NCBI GenBank assembly: GCA_944329425.1 | Contig: CALVIG010000008.1 | Span: 1 to 48,611 of the forward strand | DNA length: 48,611 bases | Origin: an uncultured Bacilli bacterium | Lineage (GTDB): Bacteria; Bacillota_I; Bacilli_A; RF39; UBA660 | Direction of reading: 5' to 3' | In this document: positions 23,880 through 39,838 of the stretch, one piece after another | How the letters are laid out: each line of letters begins with the position of its first letter | How positions within the stretch are numbered: the first letter of the stretch is position 1 | Translations under genes and position numbers: made by a program | The notes under the pieces: generated by a model | Database searches by the model: none | Told to the model about the DNA's origin: nothing | What the model saw: only the letters and a program-made list of their open reading frames with translations

Positions 23880-24374
23880 CTATCCTTGGACGTAATTAAA
23901 TTTTATAAAAAAATCATAATTACCAATGTTATTATACAAATCCCGTGTCCACGAAACCTTAACATCAAAAGTTTGTTTATCTCCTGGTTCAAGAACTGAA
24001 TCAGTAACACCAATACCTGTATACGAAACACTAATAGCGGTGTTATTTCCTAATCCAAATTGACTAATAGAACGTAATTTAGCTGGTACTGTACCAACGT
24101 TTTTAATCGTAATAGGAATTTTAGCATAAGCACCTTTAACCATTAATTTTGGAACACTTATGGTTACTTTCTTTCCATCTTCTGAAATAACCGCGCTAGC
24201 ATCCATACTATTTATTTCTTCAATCTTACCAATTTTTACAAATATTACCTGTAAATCTTCAAAAACAGCAGTTCTTCCGTTTACCTCTATGTCAGTTCTA
24301 AAAATAGAATAACCCACTGCCATAGTTATTATACAAAGTACCAACAAAACAACAAACAAATTTTGCTTTTTCAT
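23880..24374 (-). CDS. SipW-dependent surface protein (TasA/camelysin-like), copy 1
   Basis: This 164-residue exported protein has a SipW-type signal: a hydrophobic stretch 6-24 followed by VGYSIFRTDIEVNGRTA, where the GYxxF region precedes cleavage. The mature part is a beta-rich domain with AKIPITIKNVGTVPAKLRSI and a C-terminal strand KFNYVQG. TasA and camelysin relatives form extracellular fibres or act on the surface. It is less similar to copies 2 and 4 than they are to each other. It heads an operon with DUF5305 and the YjdF-like gene, and is divergent from copy 2. Confidence 0.8.
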   Translation of the reverse strand: MKKQNLFVVLLVLCIITMAVGYSIFRTDIEVNGRTAVFEDLQVIFVKIGKIEEINSMDASAVISEDGKKVTISVPKLMVKGAYAKIPITIKNVGTVPAKLRSISQFGLGNNTAISVSYTGIGVTDSVLEPGDKQTFDVKVSWTRDLYNNIGNYDFFIKFNYVQG

Positions 24375-24444
24375 GATACACCTCTATCGTAGTAATTATA
24401 GCATTTAAAATTCCATTTTTCAATAAAAATAATATTTTAAAAAT

Positions 24445-24494
24445 CATACGTAAAATTTATGACAACATTATTTAAAGTAATGTTGTTTCGTATG
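24445..24494. promoter_or_regulatory. Long inverted repeat between divergent SipW-dependent genes
   Basis: ACAACATTA (24462-24470) pairs with TAATGTTGT (24478-24486) and an outer CATACG (24445-24450) pairs with CGTATG (24489-24494), separated from the inner stem by an 11-base bulge on one side. It is not followed by a T run and lies between two divergent start codons, so an operator shared by both promoters is likelier than a terminator. Confidence 0.55.
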
Positions 24495-24526
24495 GTTTAC
24501 ATTTTTTACAAAATAAATTAATTTAA

Positions 24527-24556
24527 TTGACTATATTTTAAAAAAAATGGTATTAT
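24527..24556 (+). promoter_or_regulatory. Promoter of SipW-dependent copy 2
   Basis: TTGACT and TATTAT are separated by 18 bases. AAAGGAG follows shortly before ATG 24588. Confidence 0.6.
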
Positions 24557-24587
24557 AATTATAGAAACTAGAGAAAGGAGTATTGTA

Positions 24588-25112
24588 ATGAAAAAACAAA
24601 ACATTGTGATAATTGGTGTAATTGTTTTTGCTTTAGCGGTTGCTGTAGGTTATGCGTTATTTAAACAAACATTAACGATTAATGGTACCGCAACTGCAAG
24701 AGGTAATTTTGATGTGGAATTTACATCTATTGGAGATATAATAAAAAGTGGATACACTGATGCAACTTCACAAAACGGTGCTAATATAGCTACTATAGAA
24801 GAGGGTAAAAAAACATTAACAATAAATGTTAATAAGTTAGATTATCCAGGAGCTTATGTTGAAATTCCAGTAACAATTACAAATAAAGGTTCTATACCAG
24901 CTAAATTAAAAAGTATTGAACAAACTGGATTAGATAACGATGAAGGGCCAATTAAAGTAACTTATAGTGGTATTGCATCTGGTGAAACACCAATAAACCA
25001 AAACGAAACACAATCAATGAAAATAAGAGTTGAATGGTTAGAAGCTTCAGAAGAAACTGCTGAAAGCGCTTCCTTTACCGTTAGGCTTAATTACGAACAA
25101 GTTTCTAATTAA
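24588..25112 (+). CDS. SipW-dependent surface protein (TasA/camelysin-like), copy 2
   Basis: A 174-residue exported protein. The signal stretch 7-20 leads into VGYALFKQTLTINGTATARG, nearly the same as copy 4. The mature domain carries YPGAYVEIPVTITNKGSIPAKLKSIEQTGL and ends RLNYEQVSN. It is the only gene of the cluster on the plus strand and has its own promoter beside a long inverted repeat. Processing by the SipW-like peptidase encoded 25 bases downstream on the other strand is a strong inference from the signal type. Confidence 0.85.
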   Translation: MKKQNIVIIGVIVFALAVAVGYALFKQTLTINGTATARGNFDVEFTSIGDIIKSGYTDATSQNGANIATIEEGKKTLTINVNKLDYPGAYVEIPVTITNKGSIPAKLKSIEQTGLDNDEGPIKVTYSGIASGETPINQNETQSMKIRVEWLEASEETAESASFTVRLNYEQVSN

Positions 25113-25114
25113 AC

Positions 25115-25139
25115 AAAAAAACGCTAAATGCGTTTTTTT
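25115..25139. terminator. Bidirectional terminator between copy 2 and sipW
   Basis: An A-run plus ACGC and GCGT plus a T-run pair around TAAAT between convergent genes. Confidence 0.8.
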
Positions 25140-26334
25140 AATTTGTTCTTCCTTTATCAACGATAACCGTATCCTCTACACCGGTATTTAATAACCTACT
25201 AAGCATCAAAGTTGGATAACCTAAATACGGGATATCAAATTTTATTACACCTGCAAATTGAGATTCTTTGACTGGATATAAATCTATGTCATCATTATTA
25301 TCTCCTTTTGTAATAAATACACGATCTCCATTATTATCTTCATATATGGTAACTACCCGGTGAACAACGTAATAGTTTTCCATTCTATATCTTATGATAT
25401 CTCCTTCTTTTACCTTTTTTACATCGGTATCTTTTATTATAACAATATCACCTTTATAAATTTTTGGTGCCATACTATTACTTGCAATTACTAAAGGTTT
25501 TATAGGGAACATACCTAAACCAAAACATACCATGAGTATAATAACACCCATCATAACTATCCAGCCCTTTAACCCTACGGTTTTTACTTCTTTTCTATCA
25601 AGAGTTTTATCTATTTTATTAATTAAATAATTTATGTATATATAAGTGAAAAAAGGGATTGCCGAATTTAATATTGCTAAGGTTGCCAAATCAACGTCTG
25701 GAAGAATTGGAAGTACGTATAAAGCAAGTTGAGGCAATAACAAATACATAATTGAAATTTTATAACCAGAAAAATAGCACAAATAAGTTAAAAATAAACT
25801 AGTTATTAACTCTGGCATAAATGTTTGAATAAAAAACTCAAACGTTGATAACGAATCTTTAAAATAAGTATCAAATTTATATATATTTAAATTTGTTAAA
25901 CAAAGTAGTAACGATATAAATAACGTCCACCATAATATTCTTTTTTTCTCACAATTATTTATCATGTAATACCTAGAATACTCTCTAACAATTATCATAG
26001 GTAAAAACGACCATATGTTGGTAATAATGCCTTTTAAAGAACTATCATATGGATTATACGCAAAACCTTTAATATAACCTAAAACAAAGTATATTAAAAA
26101 ATACACTAAAGTTGCTACCACAACCGTAAAATTCACATCTTTTTTATATTTTTTATTAACTACCACGTCATTTTTAAAAAATACAACCGCTATTATACCA
26201 ATAAATATCCATGTTAAAGGTTTTATAACATACGCATAAGAAGTTCCAAATTTTAAAGAAAGACCAGTAACTTCAAATAATAATGATAATAAAATAATTA
26301 ATGATAAAACAATCACCCTTAAATTTTTTTTCAC
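25138..26334 (-). CDS. sipW: SipW-type signal peptidase with large N-terminal membrane domain
   Basis: This signal peptidase I of the ER/archaeal (SipW) type should cleave the four SipW-dependent proteins around it. The catalytic part is C-terminal: the nucleophile S287 in IASNSMAPKIYKGD, the general-base His H325 in YYVVHRVV, and the GDNND motif at 344-348. A Ser-His pair replaces the usual Ser-Lys. About 250 residues precede it with roughly seven membrane helices, whereas classical SipW has only one or two, so this is a fusion or an extended form. The start is GTG 26334, after AGGGTGA. It follows the copy 3 surface protein by 14 bases in one operon. Confidence 0.88.
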   Translation of the reverse strand: MKKNLRVIVLSLIILLSLLFEVTGLSLKFGTSYAYVIKPLTWIFIGIIAVVFFKNDVVVNKKYKKDVNFTVVVATLVYFLIYFVLGYIKGFAYNPYDSSLKGIITNIWSFLPMIIVREYSRYYMINNCEKKRILWWTLFISLLLCLTNLNIYKFDTYFKDSLSTFEFFIQTFMPELITSLFLTYLCYFSGYKISIMYLLLPQLALYVLPILPDVDLATLAILNSAIPFFTYIYINYLINKIDKTLDRKEVKTVGLKGWIVMMGVIILMVCFGLGMFPIKPLVIASNSMAPKIYKGDIVIIKDTDVKKVKEGDIIRYRMENYYVVHRVVTIYEDNNGDRVFITKGDNNDDIDLYPVKESQFAGVIKFDIPYLGYPTLMLSRLLNTGVEDTVIVDKGRTN

Positions 26335-26348
26335 TTTATCACCCTATC

Positions 26349-26939
26349 TTAATGTGAATAATTTATTATAAAATAGAAATATCTTGGCTTATTTTGGTAC
26401 ATGTAAGTAACCGTAGCTTTAACTTCGTGTTCATAAAGTTCAGATAAAAAATCAAATTTTACTGAAAAAGTTACGTCAACACTCTCTCCTGGTGCAACGG
26501 TTGTTTTAGACAATGTTGCACTCGTACCTTTAATTCTTGAAAACGGGTTTTTTACTATTTCAGTACTAACCGTTCCATTTGAAAAACTAGTAGTGGTAGG
26601 ATTAGTAAAAGTTACCGTATAATTAATGGTTTTTTCACCCATTGTAATTCCTATCTTTTTTACGAAATAAAGTTTGTAAGTATCCCCTTCCCATGATTCA
26701 CTTTCGAAATCAACAAAAGATTTAGTATTATCCGCTGTATAATACCTATTGTAATAAGTATCTCTTATAACTGCCTGAGTTGGTAATTTAGTTCCTTCGT
26801 AATAATCAACCGTACTAGCTACACCACTTATAACTAGAGAATCCTTAAAAAAAGCATATCCAACAGATATAGTTAGTATGTATATAAGAATAATTATCGT
26901 TACTATAAATAACTTATTTTTTACAACGTTACTCATCAT
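26349..26939 (-). CDS. SipW-dependent surface protein, copy 3 (divergent)
   Basis: A 196-residue exported protein with a signal helix (about 10-26) followed by VGYAFFKDSLVISGVAS, again the GYxxF pattern. The mature domain has a longer N-terminal part with YYEGTKLPTQAV, then VTFTNPTTTSFSNG and a beta-sandwich ending FIINYSH. It is the most divergent of the four. ATG 26939 lies five bases after AGGTGA. A GTG at 26948 is inside that site. It is directly upstream of sipW, suggesting that it is the major cognate substrate. Confidence 0.75.
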   Translation of the reverse strand: MMSNVVKNKLFIVTIIILIYILTISVGYAFFKDSLVISGVASTVDYYEGTKLPTQAVIRDTYYNRYYTADNTKSFVDFESESWEGDTYKLYFVKKIGITMGEKTINYTVTFTNPTTTSFSNGTVSTEIVKNPFSRIKGTSATLSKTTVAPGESVDVTFSVKFDFLSELYEHEVKATVTYMYQNKPRYFYFIINYSH

Positions 26940-27012
26940 ATGCTTCACCTATCCTAATAATATTAACATATTATTTAACAAAAAACAATAATAATAATAC
27001 GTGCATAAAGTT

Positions 27013-27044
27013 AAAAAAGCTTCTTACATATAAGAAGCTTTTTT
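27013..27044 (-). terminator. Strong terminator after SipW-dependent copy 4
   Basis: Fourteen-base arms AAAAAAGCTTCTTA and TAAGAAGCTTTTTT pair around a 4-base loop, ending at the stop of copy 4 (27043-27045). Confidence 0.88.
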
Positions 27045-27543
27045 ATATTACTTGCTCATAATTAAGTTTTATGGTAAATTCAACGTTTGACGAACTTTCA
27101 ATAGAACTTTCATCCCATAAAACCTTAATTTTAAAAACCTGCTCAACACCTTGATTTATGACTTGGTTTTTTAATTCATCAAGACCAGAATAACTAATTT
27201 TAATAGAAGGATCTGAATCTAATCCTTGCTGCTCAATATTCACTAATTTTGCTGGAATTGTGCCATTATTGGTTGTTGTTATTGTGTATTCAACATACGA
27301 ACCAGGATATTCTAATTTTGGAATATTAATACTTAAAGTATTTTTATCCTCTGATATTTGAGCCGTAGCTCCAGTGCTTCCTATTTGGGTCGTTACATCC
27401 GCTGACTTAAATTCAACATCAAAATTACCTTTTGCGGTAGCTGTACCATTGATTGAAAGCGTTTGACTAAACAAAGCGTATCCTAACGAAACCGCCAAAG
27501 AAAAAGCCACTATCGCAATCATGATAAATTTACCTTTTTTCAT
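27043..27543 (-). CDS. SipW-dependent surface protein (TasA/camelysin-like), copy 4
   Basis: This 166-residue exported protein is closest to copy 2: the signal ends LGYALFSQTLSINGTATAKG, and the mature part has YPGSYVEYTITTTNNGTIPAKLVNIEQQGL and ends KLNYEQVI. ATG 27543 lies eight bases after AGGTGAGG. ATG 27549 is too near the site. It has its own terminator and is probably transcribed alone. Confidence 0.85.
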   Translation of the reverse strand: MKKGKFIMIAIVAFSLAVSLGYALFSQTLSINGTATAKGNFDVEFKSADVTTQIGSTGATAQISEDKNTLSINIPKLEYPGSYVEYTITTTNNGTIPAKLVNIEQQGLDSDPSIKISYSGLDELKNQVINQGVEQVFKIKVLWDESSIESSSNVEFTIKLNYEQVI

Positions 27544-27610
27544 ATCCATATCCTCACCTATCTTTAATTAGCATACATTTTATTTAAATCTAAGTCAAGG
27601 GTAAAACAAT

Positions 27611-34085: not shown

Positions 34086-36395
34086 TTAAAATTTCCAATT
34101 TCTAATTTCTTCTAAATCTTCTCCAAATTCAACTATATACTTTGAGTGCTTTTCTAGCTTTTCTTGCATATCACGAATTATGTTGTTCCCGGTTTCACCC
34201 AAGTTTAGATTATTTACGGCATCAATTACCAAATTAAATCTATCTATTTTATTTTTTACCCTCATATCAAAAGCGGTGGTAATGGTACCTTCTTCTTGAT
34301 AACCGTGAACGTGAATATTATGATTATGCCTAAAATACGTAAGTTCATGAATTAGGGTTGGATAACCATGAAAATTAAAAATGATTGGTTTATCAACGGT
34401 AAATAAATCATCATATGAATCATCATCTAATCCATGAGGATGTTTTGTAGTAGAATCAAGTTTCATTAAATCTACCACGTTTATAAACCTTATCCTTAAA
34501 TTAGGTAAATACGTTTTTAATATTTTAGTTGCAGCGATTGCTTCAATGGTTGGTGTATCGCCCGCACAAGCCATTATAATGTCTGGGTTTGAATCATTAC
34601 TAACAAAATCCCAAACACCAATTCCGTTAGTACAATGTTTTACCGCTTGTTCCATATTAAGCCACTGGTATGAAGGATGTTTTGAAGCAATTATAACGTT
34701 AACGTAATTTTTGCTTCTTAAGCAATGATCCATACAAGACAACAAACAATTCGCATCAGGTGGTAAATACATTCTTACCACATCAACTTTTTTATTTGCA
34801 ATGTGATCTAAGAAACCTGGGTCTTGATGAGTAAAACCATTATGGTCTTGTTGCCATACGTTTGAAGCTAAAAGAAAATTCAAAGATGAAACAGGTTTTC
34901 TCCAAGGGATTTCATTACATACTTTAAGCCATTTAGCGTGTTGTGCAGCCATCGAATCAACGATTCTAATAAAAGCCTCGTAACTAGCAAAAAAACCGTG
35001 TCTTCCGGTTAACAAATAACCCTCTAACATACCTTCACAAACGTGTTCGGATAACATTGAATCCATTACCCTTCCATCCTTTGATAAATATTCATCATTT
35101 TCCTTAATTTCTAACTGCCAATCACGGTTAGTCACATCAAACACATCATACAACCTATTAGACATTGTCTCGTCTGGACCAAATATTCTAAAGTTTTTAT
35201 TTTCTAAATTAAATTTAAAAACATCTCTTATAAAACTACTTAAAACAATCATATCTTGTTTTTTTATACTACCAGGAGAAGTTACGTCTACAGCATAATT
35301 TGTAAAATTAGGCATGATAAGGTCCTTTCTCAAATAACCACCATTAGTATACAAGCTAGAACCCATACGCTTGTCACCTTTTGGACAAACTGATTTAAAC
35401 ACTTCTTTTAAAGTGCCATTTTCATCAAATAATTCCTCAGGTTTATAACTTTTAAGCCATTTTTCTAACAATTCAACGTGCTCTTCCTTTTCCATTGAAA
35501 TAGGTACTTGGTGAGCTCTAAAAGACCCCTCAATTACTTTACCATCTACTTCTTTAGGCCCAGTCCACCCCTTCGGAGTTCTAAGTATTATCATAGGCCA
35601 TCTTGGCTGTTCTTCATCATTAGATTCTTTTATATTCTTAATGTCTTTTATAACAGCATCCATCGTTGCCATCATTTTTTTATGCATTAACATTTCATCA
35701 GAGCCTTGTACTAAATACGGTTTATAACCGCATCCATAGAAAAAGCTTGCAATTTCCTCATTACTCATTCTAGAAAATATGGTAGGATTACTTATTTTAT
35801 ACCCGTTTAAATGAAGAATAGGAAGGACAACTCCGTCAGTTTTTTTATTCAAAAACTTCGCTGCATGCCAACTTGTTGCAAGAGGGCCTGTTTCAGCTTC
35901 TCCATCCCCTACTACGCAAGCAGCAATTAAGTTTGGATTATCAAGCACCGCACCAAAAGCATGAGCAAGACTGTACCCTAGTTCTCCACCTTCATGAATT
36001 GAACCTGGTGTTTCTGGAGCCACGTGAGAAGGTACACCACCAGGAAAAGAAAATTGTTTAAACAATTTTTTCATACCTGCTTCGTCCTCAGTAATATTAG
36101 GATATTTCTCGGTATAACTTCCTTCTAAATAAGTATTAGCAATCATAAAGTTACCGCCATGCCCAGGCCCGGATATGTATATCATATCCAAATCATACTT
36201 ATTAATTATTCTATTTAAATGAGTATAAATAAAATTTTGCCCAGGAACGGTTCCCCAGTGTCCAACGATTTTCTTTTTTATATCTTCCTTGTTTAAAGGT
36301 CTTTTTAACAATGGATTGTTTAATAAATACAACTGACAAGCTGATAAATAATTAGCAGCACGAAAATAACCATCTAATTTTTCTAATTCCGTCAT
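34086..36395 (-). CDS. xfp: Phosphoketolase (xylulose 5-phosphate/fructose 6-phosphate)
   Basis: A thiamine-diphosphate enzyme that splits xylulose 5-phosphate, or fructose 6-phosphate, to acetyl phosphate plus a sugar phosphate. The 769-residue sequence has the family blocks [61 protein letters not shown] (read here in pieces) and [12 protein letters not shown] for cofactor binding, and the C-terminal [18 protein letters not shown]. It places a heterofermentative or bifid-type carbon route in this organism. Substrate preference cannot be read from sequence. It is monocistronic. Confidence 0.96.
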
Positions 36396-36444: not shown

Positions 36445-36473
36445 AAAAAATAAGATACCAAATGTATCTTATT
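36445..36473 (-). terminator. Terminator at the end of the kinase-like gene
   Basis: AATAAGATAC (36449-36458) pairs with GTATCTTATT (36464-36473), with T-rich sequence after on the minus strand. It overlaps the stop by two bases. Confidence 0.75.
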
Positions 36474-38253
36474 AAATATATTTTTTTATTATTCTATCAA
36501 ACTCTTCTTCTAGATTTTCTTTTTTTAAATAGTCATTAAATCCATCTTCTACATAATGTTCTTTTAAGGATTCTTTATTTTTATTTAACATAACAATAGT
36601 TGGAGTATTAAAACCTTTTTTAGCTTCCTGAAGTTTTCCTAATATTGCTAAAGCAGAAGTTTGTTTCATCTCATCTTCCAAGATAATTAAATCAAATACT
36701 TCACCATCTTCTACTCTTTGAACCAAATCATTTCCATGCATAGTTGTTAAAAACTCTATATCATACTTTGAAGCTAAAGTATTCATAGACTTTAAAATTT
36801 GCAAACTATCACTCACTGCTATTACTTTTTTCTTATTAAAAATATATTTACTATAATAAGGATCCTTTTCCTGTTTTATTTTTTGATCTAACACTATCGT
36901 AAAAGTACTGCCTTTATTTTCTTCACTTTTTACATTAATAAACCCACCCAATTTTCTTATTATCTTAAAAGCTAACTTTAAATCTACATCCAAACTATTT
37001 AACTTTAATAAATCAGTATCTTCTAAATCACTATTACTTTTTAATAATTCATTTAGTTTTTCAACACTCATTCCTTTTCCAGAATCTTCAATCTCAATAA
37101 TTAGTCTGCAAACATCATATTTAACGATTTCATTAGCACTTAATTCTATATAACCTTCTTTGGTGAACTTAGCAGCATTAAATAAAATGCTAGTTATAAC
37201 TTGTTTTAATTTAACAGAATCTCCATATAATTCCATAGGTATATTTTTACTTATATTGGTTCTTAAACTAACTTTAGAATTCATTTTCTTTTTTACATTA
37301 CTTAAAACAGTATTTAAAAGAGGATATATATTATAAGTTTCATTAGTAACAGCTAATTTACTAGAAGAAATACTAGATATATCAAGTACGTTATTAATGA
37401 TGTTTTTTAGTCCTCTAGCATTATTTTCTATAACTTTTAATCCAGTATCAATTGTCTTTAAATCCTTTTCATTTTCAAGCATCTTTTTAACTTCTAAAAT
37501 ATTTTCAATTGGTTTTTTAGTATCTTGTGACATACTAAATAAAAAGTTTGATTTTTCTTCACTCATACTTTCCAATAGTTTCTTATTTTTATTAAGTTCG
37601 TATATCATTTTTACATCAGGATTTTCAATCGTAAAGAACATGATTAAATCAATATAAGTTAATACTGCGGGTATGATTAACAAACTAGGATTAATACTTC
37701 TTACAATTAATAAAACAAACGCTAATAATATTAATGCTAATAATGGAATAAATTTTCTTCCCTTTACTCTTTTCAAATTAAATAATACACTTATTATTAT
37801 AGCTAAAAAATATAAAGCACAAATAATATATAATATATTTACTGCTTGACCAGAAGCATACATAATATTATTTTTAGTGTGAATATCAATTGGAGAGATA
37901 AATATTAATATTGAAATAACAATATTTATAAATATAACTATTTTAGGCATAATACTTTTCTTTTTCTTTCCAACTCTAAAGGTAATATTATAAAAATACA
38001 AAAAGAAAAATGTAGCCCAAAATAAATATTGTAAAAAATCAAGTTTATTTAAATAATATAAAGATTTACTATCGGGTTTTACATATGCTATATATATTAT
38101 CAATACCATTAAAATACTATCCAAAAAACTTGTAATTAATAATCCTGAAAATAATTTGGTTTCAGCGCTTTTTATTCTTTTTTTAGCAAAAAAAGTAACT
38201 ATTAATAAAAAGGAACAAAAAAGTGCACATATTGGAAAATAAAGATTTGCCAT
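36472..38253 (-). CDS. Histidine-kinase-like membrane protein lacking the phosphoacceptors (pseudokinase)
   Basis: A 593-residue hybrid-kinase-shaped protein. It has seven hydrophobic segments (about 1-210), a DHp-like helix pair, an ATPase domain and a receiver-like domain (about 475-593). The H-box reads FLFSMSQDTKKPIENIL, so the phosphoacceptor His is Gln (Q243). The N-box keeps N359 in FNAAKFT, and the G1 box keeps IEDSGKGMS (D390). The G2 glycine box is lost (SLDVDLKLAFKI). In the receiver, VSDS replaces VDD and DLIILEDEMK carries Glu (E526) where the phosphoacceptor Asp should align. The start is ATG 38253, just after AGGAGG. It is probably a sensor or scaffold without classical phosphotransfer. 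Confidence 0.85.
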   Translation of the reverse strand: MANLYFPICALFCSFLLIVTFFAKKRIKSAETKLFSGLLITSFLDSILMVLIIYIAYVKPDSKSLYYLNKLDFLQYLFWATFFFLYFYNITFRVGKKKKSIMPKIVIFINIVISILIFISPIDIHTKNNIMYASGQAVNILYIICALYFLAIIISVLFNLKRVKGRKFIPLLALILLAFVLLIVRSINPSLLIIPAVLTYIDLIMFFTIENPDVKMIYELNKNKKLLESMSEEKSNFLFSMSQDTKKPIENILEVKKMLENEKDLKTIDTGLKVIENNARGLKNIINNVLDISSISSSKLAVTNETYNIYPLLNTVLSNVKKKMNSKVSLRTNISKNIPMELYGDSVKLKQVITSILFNAAKFTKEGYIELSANEIVKYDVCRLIIEIEDSGKGMSVEKLNELLKSNSDLEDTDLLKLNSLDVDLKLAFKIIRKLGGFINVKSEENKGSTFTIVLDQKIKQEKDPYYSKYIFNKKKVIAVSDSLQILKSMNTLASKYDIEFLTTMHGNDLVQRVEDGEVFDLIILEDEMKQTSALAILGKLQEAKKGFNTPTIVMLNKNKESLKEHYVEDGFNDYLKKENLEEEFDRIIKKYI

Positions 38254-38283
38254 AACTCCTCCTACCATATCTATTATATACAA

Positions 38284-38312
38284 ATTATACCATATAATAA
38301 AAATAGTAACAA
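38284..38312 (-). promoter_or_regulatory. Promoter of the kinase-like gene
   Basis: TTGTTA (38312-38307) and TATAAT (38289-38284) on the minus strand are separated by 17 bases, overlapping the end of the acyltransferase gene region. Confidence 0.7.
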
Positions 38313-38321
38313 TTATAATTA

Positions 38322-39293
38322 CTATTTTCTATAACTATAACCTTTAATACCAGACTTAAATAAAAATTTTGCTTTAGGATTATCTTTTAATCTATCTAAA
38401 TGAGCAAAAGCTTCATCAGGAGAATCACCATCCTTATAAATGCAAGAAGCTTCAAAATTTCTATCAAGCCCTGGGCATTCTTCCCAAGCTTTTTCTTTTT
38501 CTTCTTTAAATTGTTTTCTTAAAATATCTTTTAAATTTTTTAATTGATTATAAAGTATCAATAAATCTTCCATTTTTGAATCAGGTAATTCCTCCCAATT
38601 ATCTGCTATATATTCTATTTTCTTTTTTAAAGTTTTGGCAGGATAAAAATCAGTTTTTTCTTCAAGGAAATCATGCAACATTGTAGCCATTATATCACGC
38701 AAATCATCTGATTGTTCACGAGAGCTTTTTTCTTTATTAACAATATATGGCTTTCCTATTACCACATAACATTTTCCACTTAAATAGATTAAAATTAGTG
38801 GCACAATATGTACATTGGTTTCTTTAGATGCATTTACTGCTCCATTAAAAGGTTTATTCATAAGTTTATTTTCTTTAACATTCCATGCTGCTTCAAAAAA
38901 AGTAAGTGTTGAATATCCATTTTTTTGAGCTAATATAATTTTTTCTTGAGTAGCTTGCCTACTTTCTTTTTTCTTCCTCCATATCCAAATTGGACCATTT
39001 AATAAAAATCCTATTTTTTGAATTAAAGTTAAACCTTCTTTAGCAATAACTACGTAAAAATGCTCTTTTACTGCTTTTCCTACAACGGGAATGTCATGAG
39101 AATTAGTATGATTTGCAATAAAATTTACAGGTTGCCCTTTAGAAAAATATTCCTTATCAAGAAAATCCAACATTTCTGGATTTACAACTTCAACCTTGAT
39201 TGGATCAACTTTATCAATTAGTTTCAAATAATTACTATGAAATTCTTTTCTAAATTTTGCAACAGTTTTATTAAACTTTATTTTTTTCGCCAC
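38322..39293 (-). CDS. PlsC-like lysophospholipid acyltransferase
   Basis: A 323-residue acyltransferase-fold protein. The HX4D motif is present as NHTNSHD near residue 60, the block usually reading FPEGTR is FFEAAWN, and IVPLILIYLSGKCYVVIGKPY matches the motif 4 region of the PlsC/AGPAT family. The C-terminal 100 residues are helical and charged, ending in a basic tail. It probably acylates a lysophospholipid or glycerolipid at the membrane. Loss of the usual Gly and Arg in FPEGTR makes the substrate doubtful. GTG 39293 is the best-spaced start after AGGGTGA. GTG 39302 overlaps that site. Confidence 0.75.
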   Translation of the reverse strand: MAKKIKFNKTVAKFRKEFHSNYLKLIDKVDPIKVEVVNPEMLDFLDKEYFSKGQPVNFIANHTNSHDIPVVGKAVKEHFYVVIAKEGLTLIQKIGFLLNGPIWIWRKKKESRQATQEKIILAQKNGYSTLTFFEAAWNVKENKLMNKPFNGAVNASKETNVHIVPLILIYLSGKCYVVIGKPYIVNKEKSSREQSDDLRDIMATMLHDFLEEKTDFYPAKTLKKKIEYIADNWEELPDSKMEDLLILYNQLKNLKDILRKQFKEEKEKAWEECPGLDRNFEASCIYKDGDSPDEAFAHLDRLKDNPKAKFLFKSGIKGYSYRK

Positions 39294-39381
39294 CAAAATC
39301 ACCCTTTTATTTATTTTTTACTGCTAAATACTACAACGCCATACATTTTACCATAATATAATGATTTTTGCAAAAAATAAT

Positions 39382-39420: not shown

Positions 39421-39813
39421 TTATTTTATTTCGATGTATTTTTTGTTTTCTTCTTCGTCTTTTTTAGGAACGGTAATTTTTAAAACACCGTTGTTAAATT
39501 CTGCATTAACATTATCAGAATCTAAATCATGCAAGTAGAAAGATCTTTGGTACTTACCATAAGTCCTTTCACGATGAATGTAGTTTTTATCCTTATCTTC
39601 ATCATTTGTTTCGCTTGATTTTTCAGCTGTAATTGTTAAATAATCCTTTTTAGCTTCAATCTTAATTTCGTTTTTGTCAAATCCAGGAACATCCATTTCA
39701 ATATGGTAATCACCATCTTTTTCATAAATATCACATTTCATGTTATCTTCCCTACTTGTTGGCATGAAGTCATCAAAAATATCACCGAAATAATTTCTTG
39801 GTAATAAACTCAT
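39421..39813 (-). CDS. hsp20: Small heat-shock protein (Hsp20/alpha-crystallin)
   Basis: A 130-residue chaperone of the alpha-crystallin family that holds unfolding proteins. The core shows EKDGDYHIEMDVPGFDKNEIKIE and RTYGKYQRSFYLHDLD, then the signature NAEFNNGVLKITVPK (A-x-x-x-n-G-v-L), and ends with a short IEIK tail. ATG 39813 is preferred. ATG 39822 sits two bases after AAAGGA. Control is clear from the sequence: a CIRCE element overlaps the promoter. Confidence 0.93.
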   Translation of the reverse strand: MSLLPRNYFGDIFDDFMPTSREDNMKCDIYEKDGDYHIEMDVPGFDKNEIKIEAKKDYLTITAEKSSETNDEDKDKNYIHRERTYGKYQRSFYLHDLDSDNVNAEFNNGVLKITVPKKDEEENKKYIEIK

Positions 39814-39838
39814 ATATCTCATCTTCCTTTCTAATTAT

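Follow-up and report, generated by a model that had tools for sequence, protein, structure and literature searches.

A His-less pseudokinase maintained in a family of gut Bacilli, and the exchange of its GPCR-like sensor half together with an upstream acyl enzyme

The locus described here raises the question of what a hybrid histidine kinase can do once both of its phosphoacceptor residues are gone, and of what its seven-helix input domain might sense. The window, that is, the whole stretch of DNA that was analysed (48,611 nucleotides), corresponds to contig C8 in a draft genome of 1.11 Mb, most likely from the genus Candidatus Aphodocola of the GTDB family UBA660; nearly all of the results below rest on draft metagenome assemblies. 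The kinase gene begins with an ATG at 38253 and its frame is intact, as had been claimed, with 593 residues and no internal stop in the translation. In Pfam, the protein matched HATPase_c (2.5e-13) and Response_reg (4.7e-8), while a HisKA match (3e-4) fell below the cut-off. The structure model agreed with the proposed seven-helix input domain and placed seven transmembrane (TM) helices ahead of the DHp, CA and receiver domains. The gene and its parts are as follows.

36472..38253, minus strand: His-less hybrid pseudokinase gene, 593 aa (open reading frame, translation, Pfam HATPase_c and Response_reg)
37624..38253, minus strand: seven-TM (7TM) input domain, residues 1-210, predicted to fold like a GPCR; this half of the protein is the swapped one (AlphaFold model, fold searches, identity contrast)
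37615..37635, minus strand: FTIENPD junction at the end of TM7, residues 207-213, invariant or nearly so across alignments
37354..37614, minus strand: DHp (HisKA), residues 214-300, with Q243 replacing His (alignment, structure model)
36874..37353, minus strand: CA (HATPase_c), residues 301-460 (Pfam, alignment, fold match)
36475..36831, minus strand: pseudoreceiver, residues 475-593 (Pfam, alignment)

Alignment with the homologues bore out each of the catalytic losses in the original prediction. The H-box histidine is replaced by Gln243 (codon 37525-37527) and the G2 box, GTGLGLA in the relatives, reads LNSLDVDLKLA. In the receiver, one acidic pocket residue is Ser481, the second acid, Asp482, being kept, and the phosphoacceptor aspartate is Glu526 (codon 36676-36678). 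A further loss, missed at the time, is at the receiver threonine position, which is Leu556, whereas Lys578 is kept. Only two of the five residues of a functional receiver thus survive, and the kinase half falls short of a functional HisKA hybrid kinase, having no H-box His and a replaced G2 box but retaining Asn359 and G1. An alternative alignment that restores His and Asp, foreseen as one objection, finds no histidine to use: the only ones in the whole protein are residues 125, 506 and 566, and since none lies between residues 126 and 505, the DHp domain has no alternative phosphoacceptor. In the ATP pocket, the N box (N359) and G1 (DSGKGM, residues 390-395) are intact, so that nucleotide binding may persist; the loss of function concerns phosphotransfer and not necessarily nucleotide binding.

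The window-type gene was found in nine genomes of the genus, that of the window included, and the other eight copies were 62-72% identical to it. Gln243 and Glu526 were present in 9/9 of these orthologues, all of which also have Ser481, the motif LDVDLKLA where G2 would be, and an intact frame; the arrangement of intact homologues beside a frameshifted copy in the window genome was not found. For DHp and CA together, dN/dS was 0.03 in comparison with the nearest congeners and rose to 0.12 with more distant ones, and for the receiver it was 0.09-0.28 among congeners, figures that are rough because synonymous sites are near saturation. With the fold kept in the model and in fold matches, the losses conserved throughout the genus, and purifying selection indicated by dN/dS, the protein is, as judged from its residues, a pseudokinase.

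The proposed expression signals fared unevenly. The ribosome binding site, AGGAGGAG, could be read straight from the sequence. The promoter described as good did not hold up, since sites of this kind number 18 in the region and 18.6 in shuffles, and are therefore not above chance. For the terminator, a dedicated scan was negative, although the stop is followed by an AT-rich hairpin of 10 bp and a U run (z = -2.9), a possible terminator. The genes on either side are conserved.

38284..38312, minus strand: promoter-like TTGTTA-17-TATAAT with TG, 10/12, unproven (count against shuffles)
36445..36473, minus strand: AT-rich hairpin and U run just past the stop, possible terminator (z = -2.9)
34086..36395, minus strand: phosphoketolase (xfp), conserved downstream flank, 83-92% identical to congeners
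39421..39822, minus strand: Hsp20, conserved upstream flank, 77-93% identical to congeners

Elsewhere in the window (23880-27549), a cluster encodes related, secreted short proteins along with a membrane protein resembling a signal peptidase; by eye, the cluster looks TasA/SipW-like.

The homologue set comprised 143 distinct full-length proteins, mostly from the same bacterial family. On a quick tree without bootstrap, from which the catalytic columns had been left out, a single branch (SH-aLRT 100) separated 87 His-less from 56 His-bearing proteins. Gln occupies the H-box position in 70 of the 87 His-less proteins and Leu or Ile the receiver Thr position in 82, while the G1 Asp is kept in 83 and the N-box Asn in 71. 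Judging from this tree, His was lost to Gln once, in one ancestral event that was followed by diversification over many genera. The claim of a maintained pseudokinase as opposed to a decaying gene is upheld by the constancy of Gln and Glu within the genus, the low dN/dS of the core and the position of the 87 relatives on one side of the branch. The receiver Asp has a different history. It is kept in 60 of the 87 and lost in 27, and its state requires nine changes on the core tree, so that the window clade represents a second step in which Asp was lost later than His. Because sister proteins have D, K, S, N, A or T at this position, and those without Asp are thus not confined to Glu, the earlier idea that Glu mimics the phosphorylated state cannot be general.

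A His-less core was detected in 54 of 386 sampled genomes of the bacterial family, at a score cut-off set on known members; these occurrence counts are an estimate, as one known member scores below the cut-off. At the level of sequence, then, the His-less core is shown to be old, maintained and widespread in the family, and to be without the residues that His-Asp phosphotransfer requires. Most bacterial pseudo-histidine kinases on record are isolated examples, such as DivL and a ChrS variant, whereas here one loss of His led to a family found in roughly 24 of 150 sampled genera, and this family lets one ask why the kinase fold stays once phosphotransfer is gone.

The input domain was modelled alone with AlphaFold (pLDDT 89, pTM 0.87). 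Its N terminus is placed outside by the positive loops, and the loop between TM4 and TM5 contains a hairpin. The best 50 PDB entries for the model were all GPCRs or contained a GPCR domain, with VIA Z scores of 15-17 over 200-213 of 217 residues at 3.0-4.1 Å; the Foldseek E-values were modest (3e-3 to 4e-2), and a sequence profile of the domain gave only chance-level matches to PDB sequences. Helical bundles reach Z scores of about 13 without kinship, and the match is therefore read as a likeness of arrangement, not of descent: in the model, the domain is a set of seven helices in a GPCR-like arrangement. The helices are arranged as in GPCRs, but the output is a kinase core and not a G protein. 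Another candidate for the input domain, 7TMR-DISM (PF07695), which is the input domain of RetS, gave no match in the window's own genome or in the Pfam scan of the kinase protein, nor was it among the 25 families listed for 54 relatives. No Pfam or NCBIfam name was consistently assigned to the domain. In the literature that was searched, no GPCR-like fold linked with bacterial kinases was found, which is weak evidence.

Directly upstream of the kinase gene is a putative acyl enzyme.

38322..39302, minus strand: acyltransferase (PF01553, Pfam 4.7e-10) with the HX4D motif HTNSHD

This protein matched NCBIfam AGP_acyltrn at 3.8e-10, below the cut-off of that family, and shared 24-31% identity with its counterparts at this locus in congeners. 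An enzyme of this general kind was nearly always present. By Pfam, the gene upstream of His-less kinases encoded an AMP-binding protein in 32 loci and an acyltransferase in 8 (40/41), and upstream of His-bearing kinases the numbers were 10 and 11 (21/22); tandem kinases in the C1-type operon of the genus, which follow another kinase or the REC-HD gene, are not part of the count. Ligases and acyltransferases were told apart by Pfam and our own profiles, and the ligases look like long-chain fatty-acid CoA ligases, although none reached a curated cut-off. The gap between the enzyme and kinase genes is usually under 120 bp.

In four congeners, stand-alone 7TM proteins also have an AMP ligase directly upstream, which makes the enzyme and the 7TM domain the constant unit and the kinase core the optional part. 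These stand-alone pairs (L198:3276-6104, L199:4686-7472, L200:2005-4713 and L201:4015-6755) adjoin ligA, and a RelA/SpoT-like gene adjoins some of them as well. In other families of the class, homologous 7TM domains are fused to GGDEF, EAL or HD outputs, as judged by eye from the C-terminal sequence. Most of those loci read in other Bacilli had no enzyme directly upstream, and the domain can therefore sense without such a partner. A pairing of acyl-CoA ligases with seven-TM kinases was not found in the searched literature either, again weak evidence.

The comparison of the window with genome G005 suggested that the enzyme and the sensor half have a history of their own. Identity was 93% for Hsp20, 28% for the enzyme, 38% for the 7TM domain, 91% for the core and 85% for xfp, with a sharp step near residue 202 of the kinase. 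Other congeners are 71-98% identical to one another over the 7TM domain, so that it is the window that carries the odd allele. The replaced segment was delimited at the DNA level.

37658..39241, no strand assigned: replaced cassette of acyltransferase and 7TM domain (blastn against the congener locus L118)

Over this segment there was no continuous DNA similarity to L118, apart from a short 72% patch at the kinase gene start, while the flanks were 79-86% identical. The nearest relatives of the window 7TM domain (46-49%) were two His-bearing kinases, L151 and L152.

The same pattern was found elsewhere in the family. The kinases L115 and L114 share 99% identity in the core but only 41% in the 7TM domain and 34-35% in the enzyme. 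In their loci (L227 and L228, the loci of L114 and L115), DNA that is 94-96% identical on both sides surrounds 2.6 kb of unrelated DNA extending from the ligase gene start to the end of TM7; similarity stops 16 bp into the enzyme gene and resumes at about residue 206 of the kinase. The reverse case is the pair L140/L107, in which the enzyme (84%) and the 7TM domain (83%) are alike and the core is not (40%). Of 18 pairs, which are not all independent events, 17 have their change point within residues 198-216; in the eighteenth, L010/L011, it was at 254 with a weak contrast. The break points thus cluster at the FTIENPD junction and, in the best-resolved swaps, the replaced DNA ends on its outer side where the enzyme gene begins, with 93-99% identity in the gene beyond. 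Misassembly of the metagenomes was considered as a source of the swaps and is unlikely, given that the frames are intact, that both junctions lie inside contigs, and that the break points agree over many independent assemblies. The identity profiles show the 7TM domain and the upstream enzyme behaving as one cassette that is exchanged between His-bearing and His-less cores and breaks at the end of TM7. Two minor observations concern these loci. A PHP-like gene lies downstream of the kinase in G131 (L227:5126-6016) and is missing at the same place in G403. A closely related 7TM domain in another family, f16, is carried by a His-bearing kinase with two receivers (L221:586-3189), suggesting transfer between families.

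The statistics of co-variation agreed with this picture. For enzyme type, scored in 104 labelled rows, the 7TM tree needs 4 changes and the core tree 15. In partial Mantel tests, enzyme distance correlated with 7TM distance, given the core, at 0.70 and 0.79, and at 0.55 and 0.48 when close pairs were removed (permutation p 0.001); with core distance, given the 7TM domain, the values were 0.03-0.12. His state behaves the other way round: a single change explains it on the core tree, whereas the 7TM tree calls for 24, of which well-supported branches force at least 8. Sensors thus move freely between catalytic and dead cores. The rows are related, the trees are quick and adjacency alone would yield some correlation; the argument for a defined cassette is therefore carried by the flank data. 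Adjacent enzyme and receptor genes, an enzyme and a sensor half that co-vary, and a kinase half that stays constant are features that these loci share with quorum-sensing synthase-receptor pairs such as ComQXP and CqsA/CqsS.

The best explanation, to which we assign a probability of roughly 0.5, is an enzyme and a receptor that are matched to each other and feed into a kinase core that does not phosphorylate. The enzyme would make or modify an acyl- or lipid-type molecule recognised by its own 7TM domain, as in ComQXP and CqsA/CqsS (CqsA differing in being a PLP enzyme), and because of this recognition the enzyme and the 7TM domain would have to match. Binding of the ligand would reshape the pseudokinase core, which, with its N box and G1, probably still binds nucleotide. 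The core would then pass the signal on through contact; the most likely target is an active kinase or relay protein, which it would pair with or titrate in the manner of RetS and DivL, and Glu526 would lock the receiver in one fixed state. In the window genome, the candidate partner is an operon of hybrid kinases, HPt and REC-HD on contig C1. The cassette offers a direct guess, open to testing, at the ligand source of seven-helix sensors that have no Pfam name.

In the ComQXP system of Bacillus, the signal-making gene adjoins that of a membrane kinase with a conserved cytoplasmic part and a highly variable TM sensor half, and strains form communication groups (PMC4008528). ComQ, however, transfers an isoprenyl group to a peptide, and ComP is a catalytic kinase, whereas the window locus has an acyl enzyme (ligase or acyltransferase), a His-less core, and no peptide gene that could be seen. 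In CqsA/CqsS and LqsA/LqsS, an acyl-CoA-using synthase is matched to a multi-TM hybrid kinase and the specificities of the two correspond (PMC3285556). CqsS differs from the window protein in being an active kinase and in having six TM helices (PMC4821796). In the proposed model, we infer an output like that of RetS and DivL and an input like that of ComQXP or CqsA/CqsS.

A wider version of this reading, held tentatively and at somewhat short of even odds, is a polymorphic communication system in a family of gut Bacilli, consisting of an acyl-signal synthase and a GPCR-like receptor whose alleles move between live and dead cores. If so, the same set of signals could be read with or without phosphorylation. 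These uncultured gut bacteria would, if the enzyme does make the ligand, have a private chemical language with many dialects.

The strongest alternative, which we consider unlikely though worth serious weight, has no released signal: the enzyme and the 7TM domain would form a physical complex, or act on the same membrane lipid in one cell as part of lipid homeostasis, with the 7TM domain anchoring, sensing or regulating the enzyme and the two being swapped together since their parts must fit. The co-swap data speak for this too, the stand-alone 7TM-enzyme pairs do without a kinase, and the enzymes have relatives among lipid acyltransferases and long-chain fatty-acid CoA ligases. What it does not lead one to expect, for housekeeping control of lipids, is that near-identical genomes such as those of L115 and L114 carry unrelated alleles of both parts. 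Unrelated alleles in near-identical genomes are a pattern known from communication and recognition loci.

Physical linkage alone, in which stretches of DNA recombine, adjacency makes the enzyme and the 7TM domain travel together, and the core is held in place by its partners, would account for the short distances between the neighbours and for break points in the conserved FTIENPD stretch, a natural site for homologous crossover. It is rather improbable, as the outer end in the best-resolved cases falls at the enzyme gene start, with a nearly identical gene beyond it, and the enzyme and the 7TM domain remain paired at almost every locus, in both kinase clades, and in the kinase-free copies too.

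For the matched enzyme-receptor pair, the output side has parallels in known kinase-fold proteins that act on other kinases. DivL of Caulobacter has Tyr for His, a PAS input, and senses another protein (PMC4211667), RetS of Pseudomonas blocks the autophosphorylation of GacS (PMC4866733), and the dead kinase of a C. glutamicum ChrS variant can act via a live paralogue with which it pairs (PMC9491836). DivL and RetS resemble the window protein in keeping the histidine kinase fold without a self-standing phosphorelay output, but they have different input domains and no paired enzyme, and no report of sensor swapping was found for them in the literature consulted. Both were among the closest structures to the CA domain of the model (RetS, Z 18.2, 3.4 Å over 151 residues; DivL, Z 17.2, 2.9 Å over 138), tied with many active kinases.

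The search for partner kinases, suggested along with the original prediction, located a candidate relay operon on contig C1 of the same genome. It encodes HPt, REC-HD and two hybrid kinases, one canonical and the other with His and Asp but a degraded ATP site, and the HPt gene is present in all nine genomes with the window-type gene. The degraded ATP site (NTGHAM, DSVTLGL) of the latter kinase (L057:11337-13223, C1:116337-118223) was seen in 10/10 orthologues, and this protein, in tandem with the canonical kinase, is possibly a substrate-only partner. The REC-HD gene (L057:13246-14862, C1:118246-119862), which shares the operon with HPt and the two hybrid kinases, has an HD motif that looks diverged by eye; a c-di-GMP output was considered and set aside on account of these HD residues. 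Neither HPt nor a His-bearing 7TM kinase was seen in G015 and G017, which have only a His-less paralogue, so the relay is a candidate partner of the window protein and not a general requirement across the family.

The same two genomes weigh against the view, in our opinion highly improbable, that the His-less protein is a RetS-like decoy or brake that has no ligand of its own and only heterodimerises with a His-bearing 7TM hybrid kinase of the same genome. The shared architecture, the HPt relay operon in the nine window-type genomes, and the CA-domain likeness to RetS and DivL speak for it, but a pure decoy would have no need of sensor domains that keep being exchanged.

A pseudogene in slow decay could claim the loss of several catalytic motifs and a clearly broken relative in G014 but is already refuted by the sequence comparisons, in which the core dN/dS is 0.03-0.12, all frames of the window clade are intact, and most of the His-less relatives retain Gln. 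That relative, L079 (G014:C35:5983-6954), is a His-less gene with a 299-aa open frame and three stops; the family does decay in places, and the window locus does not.
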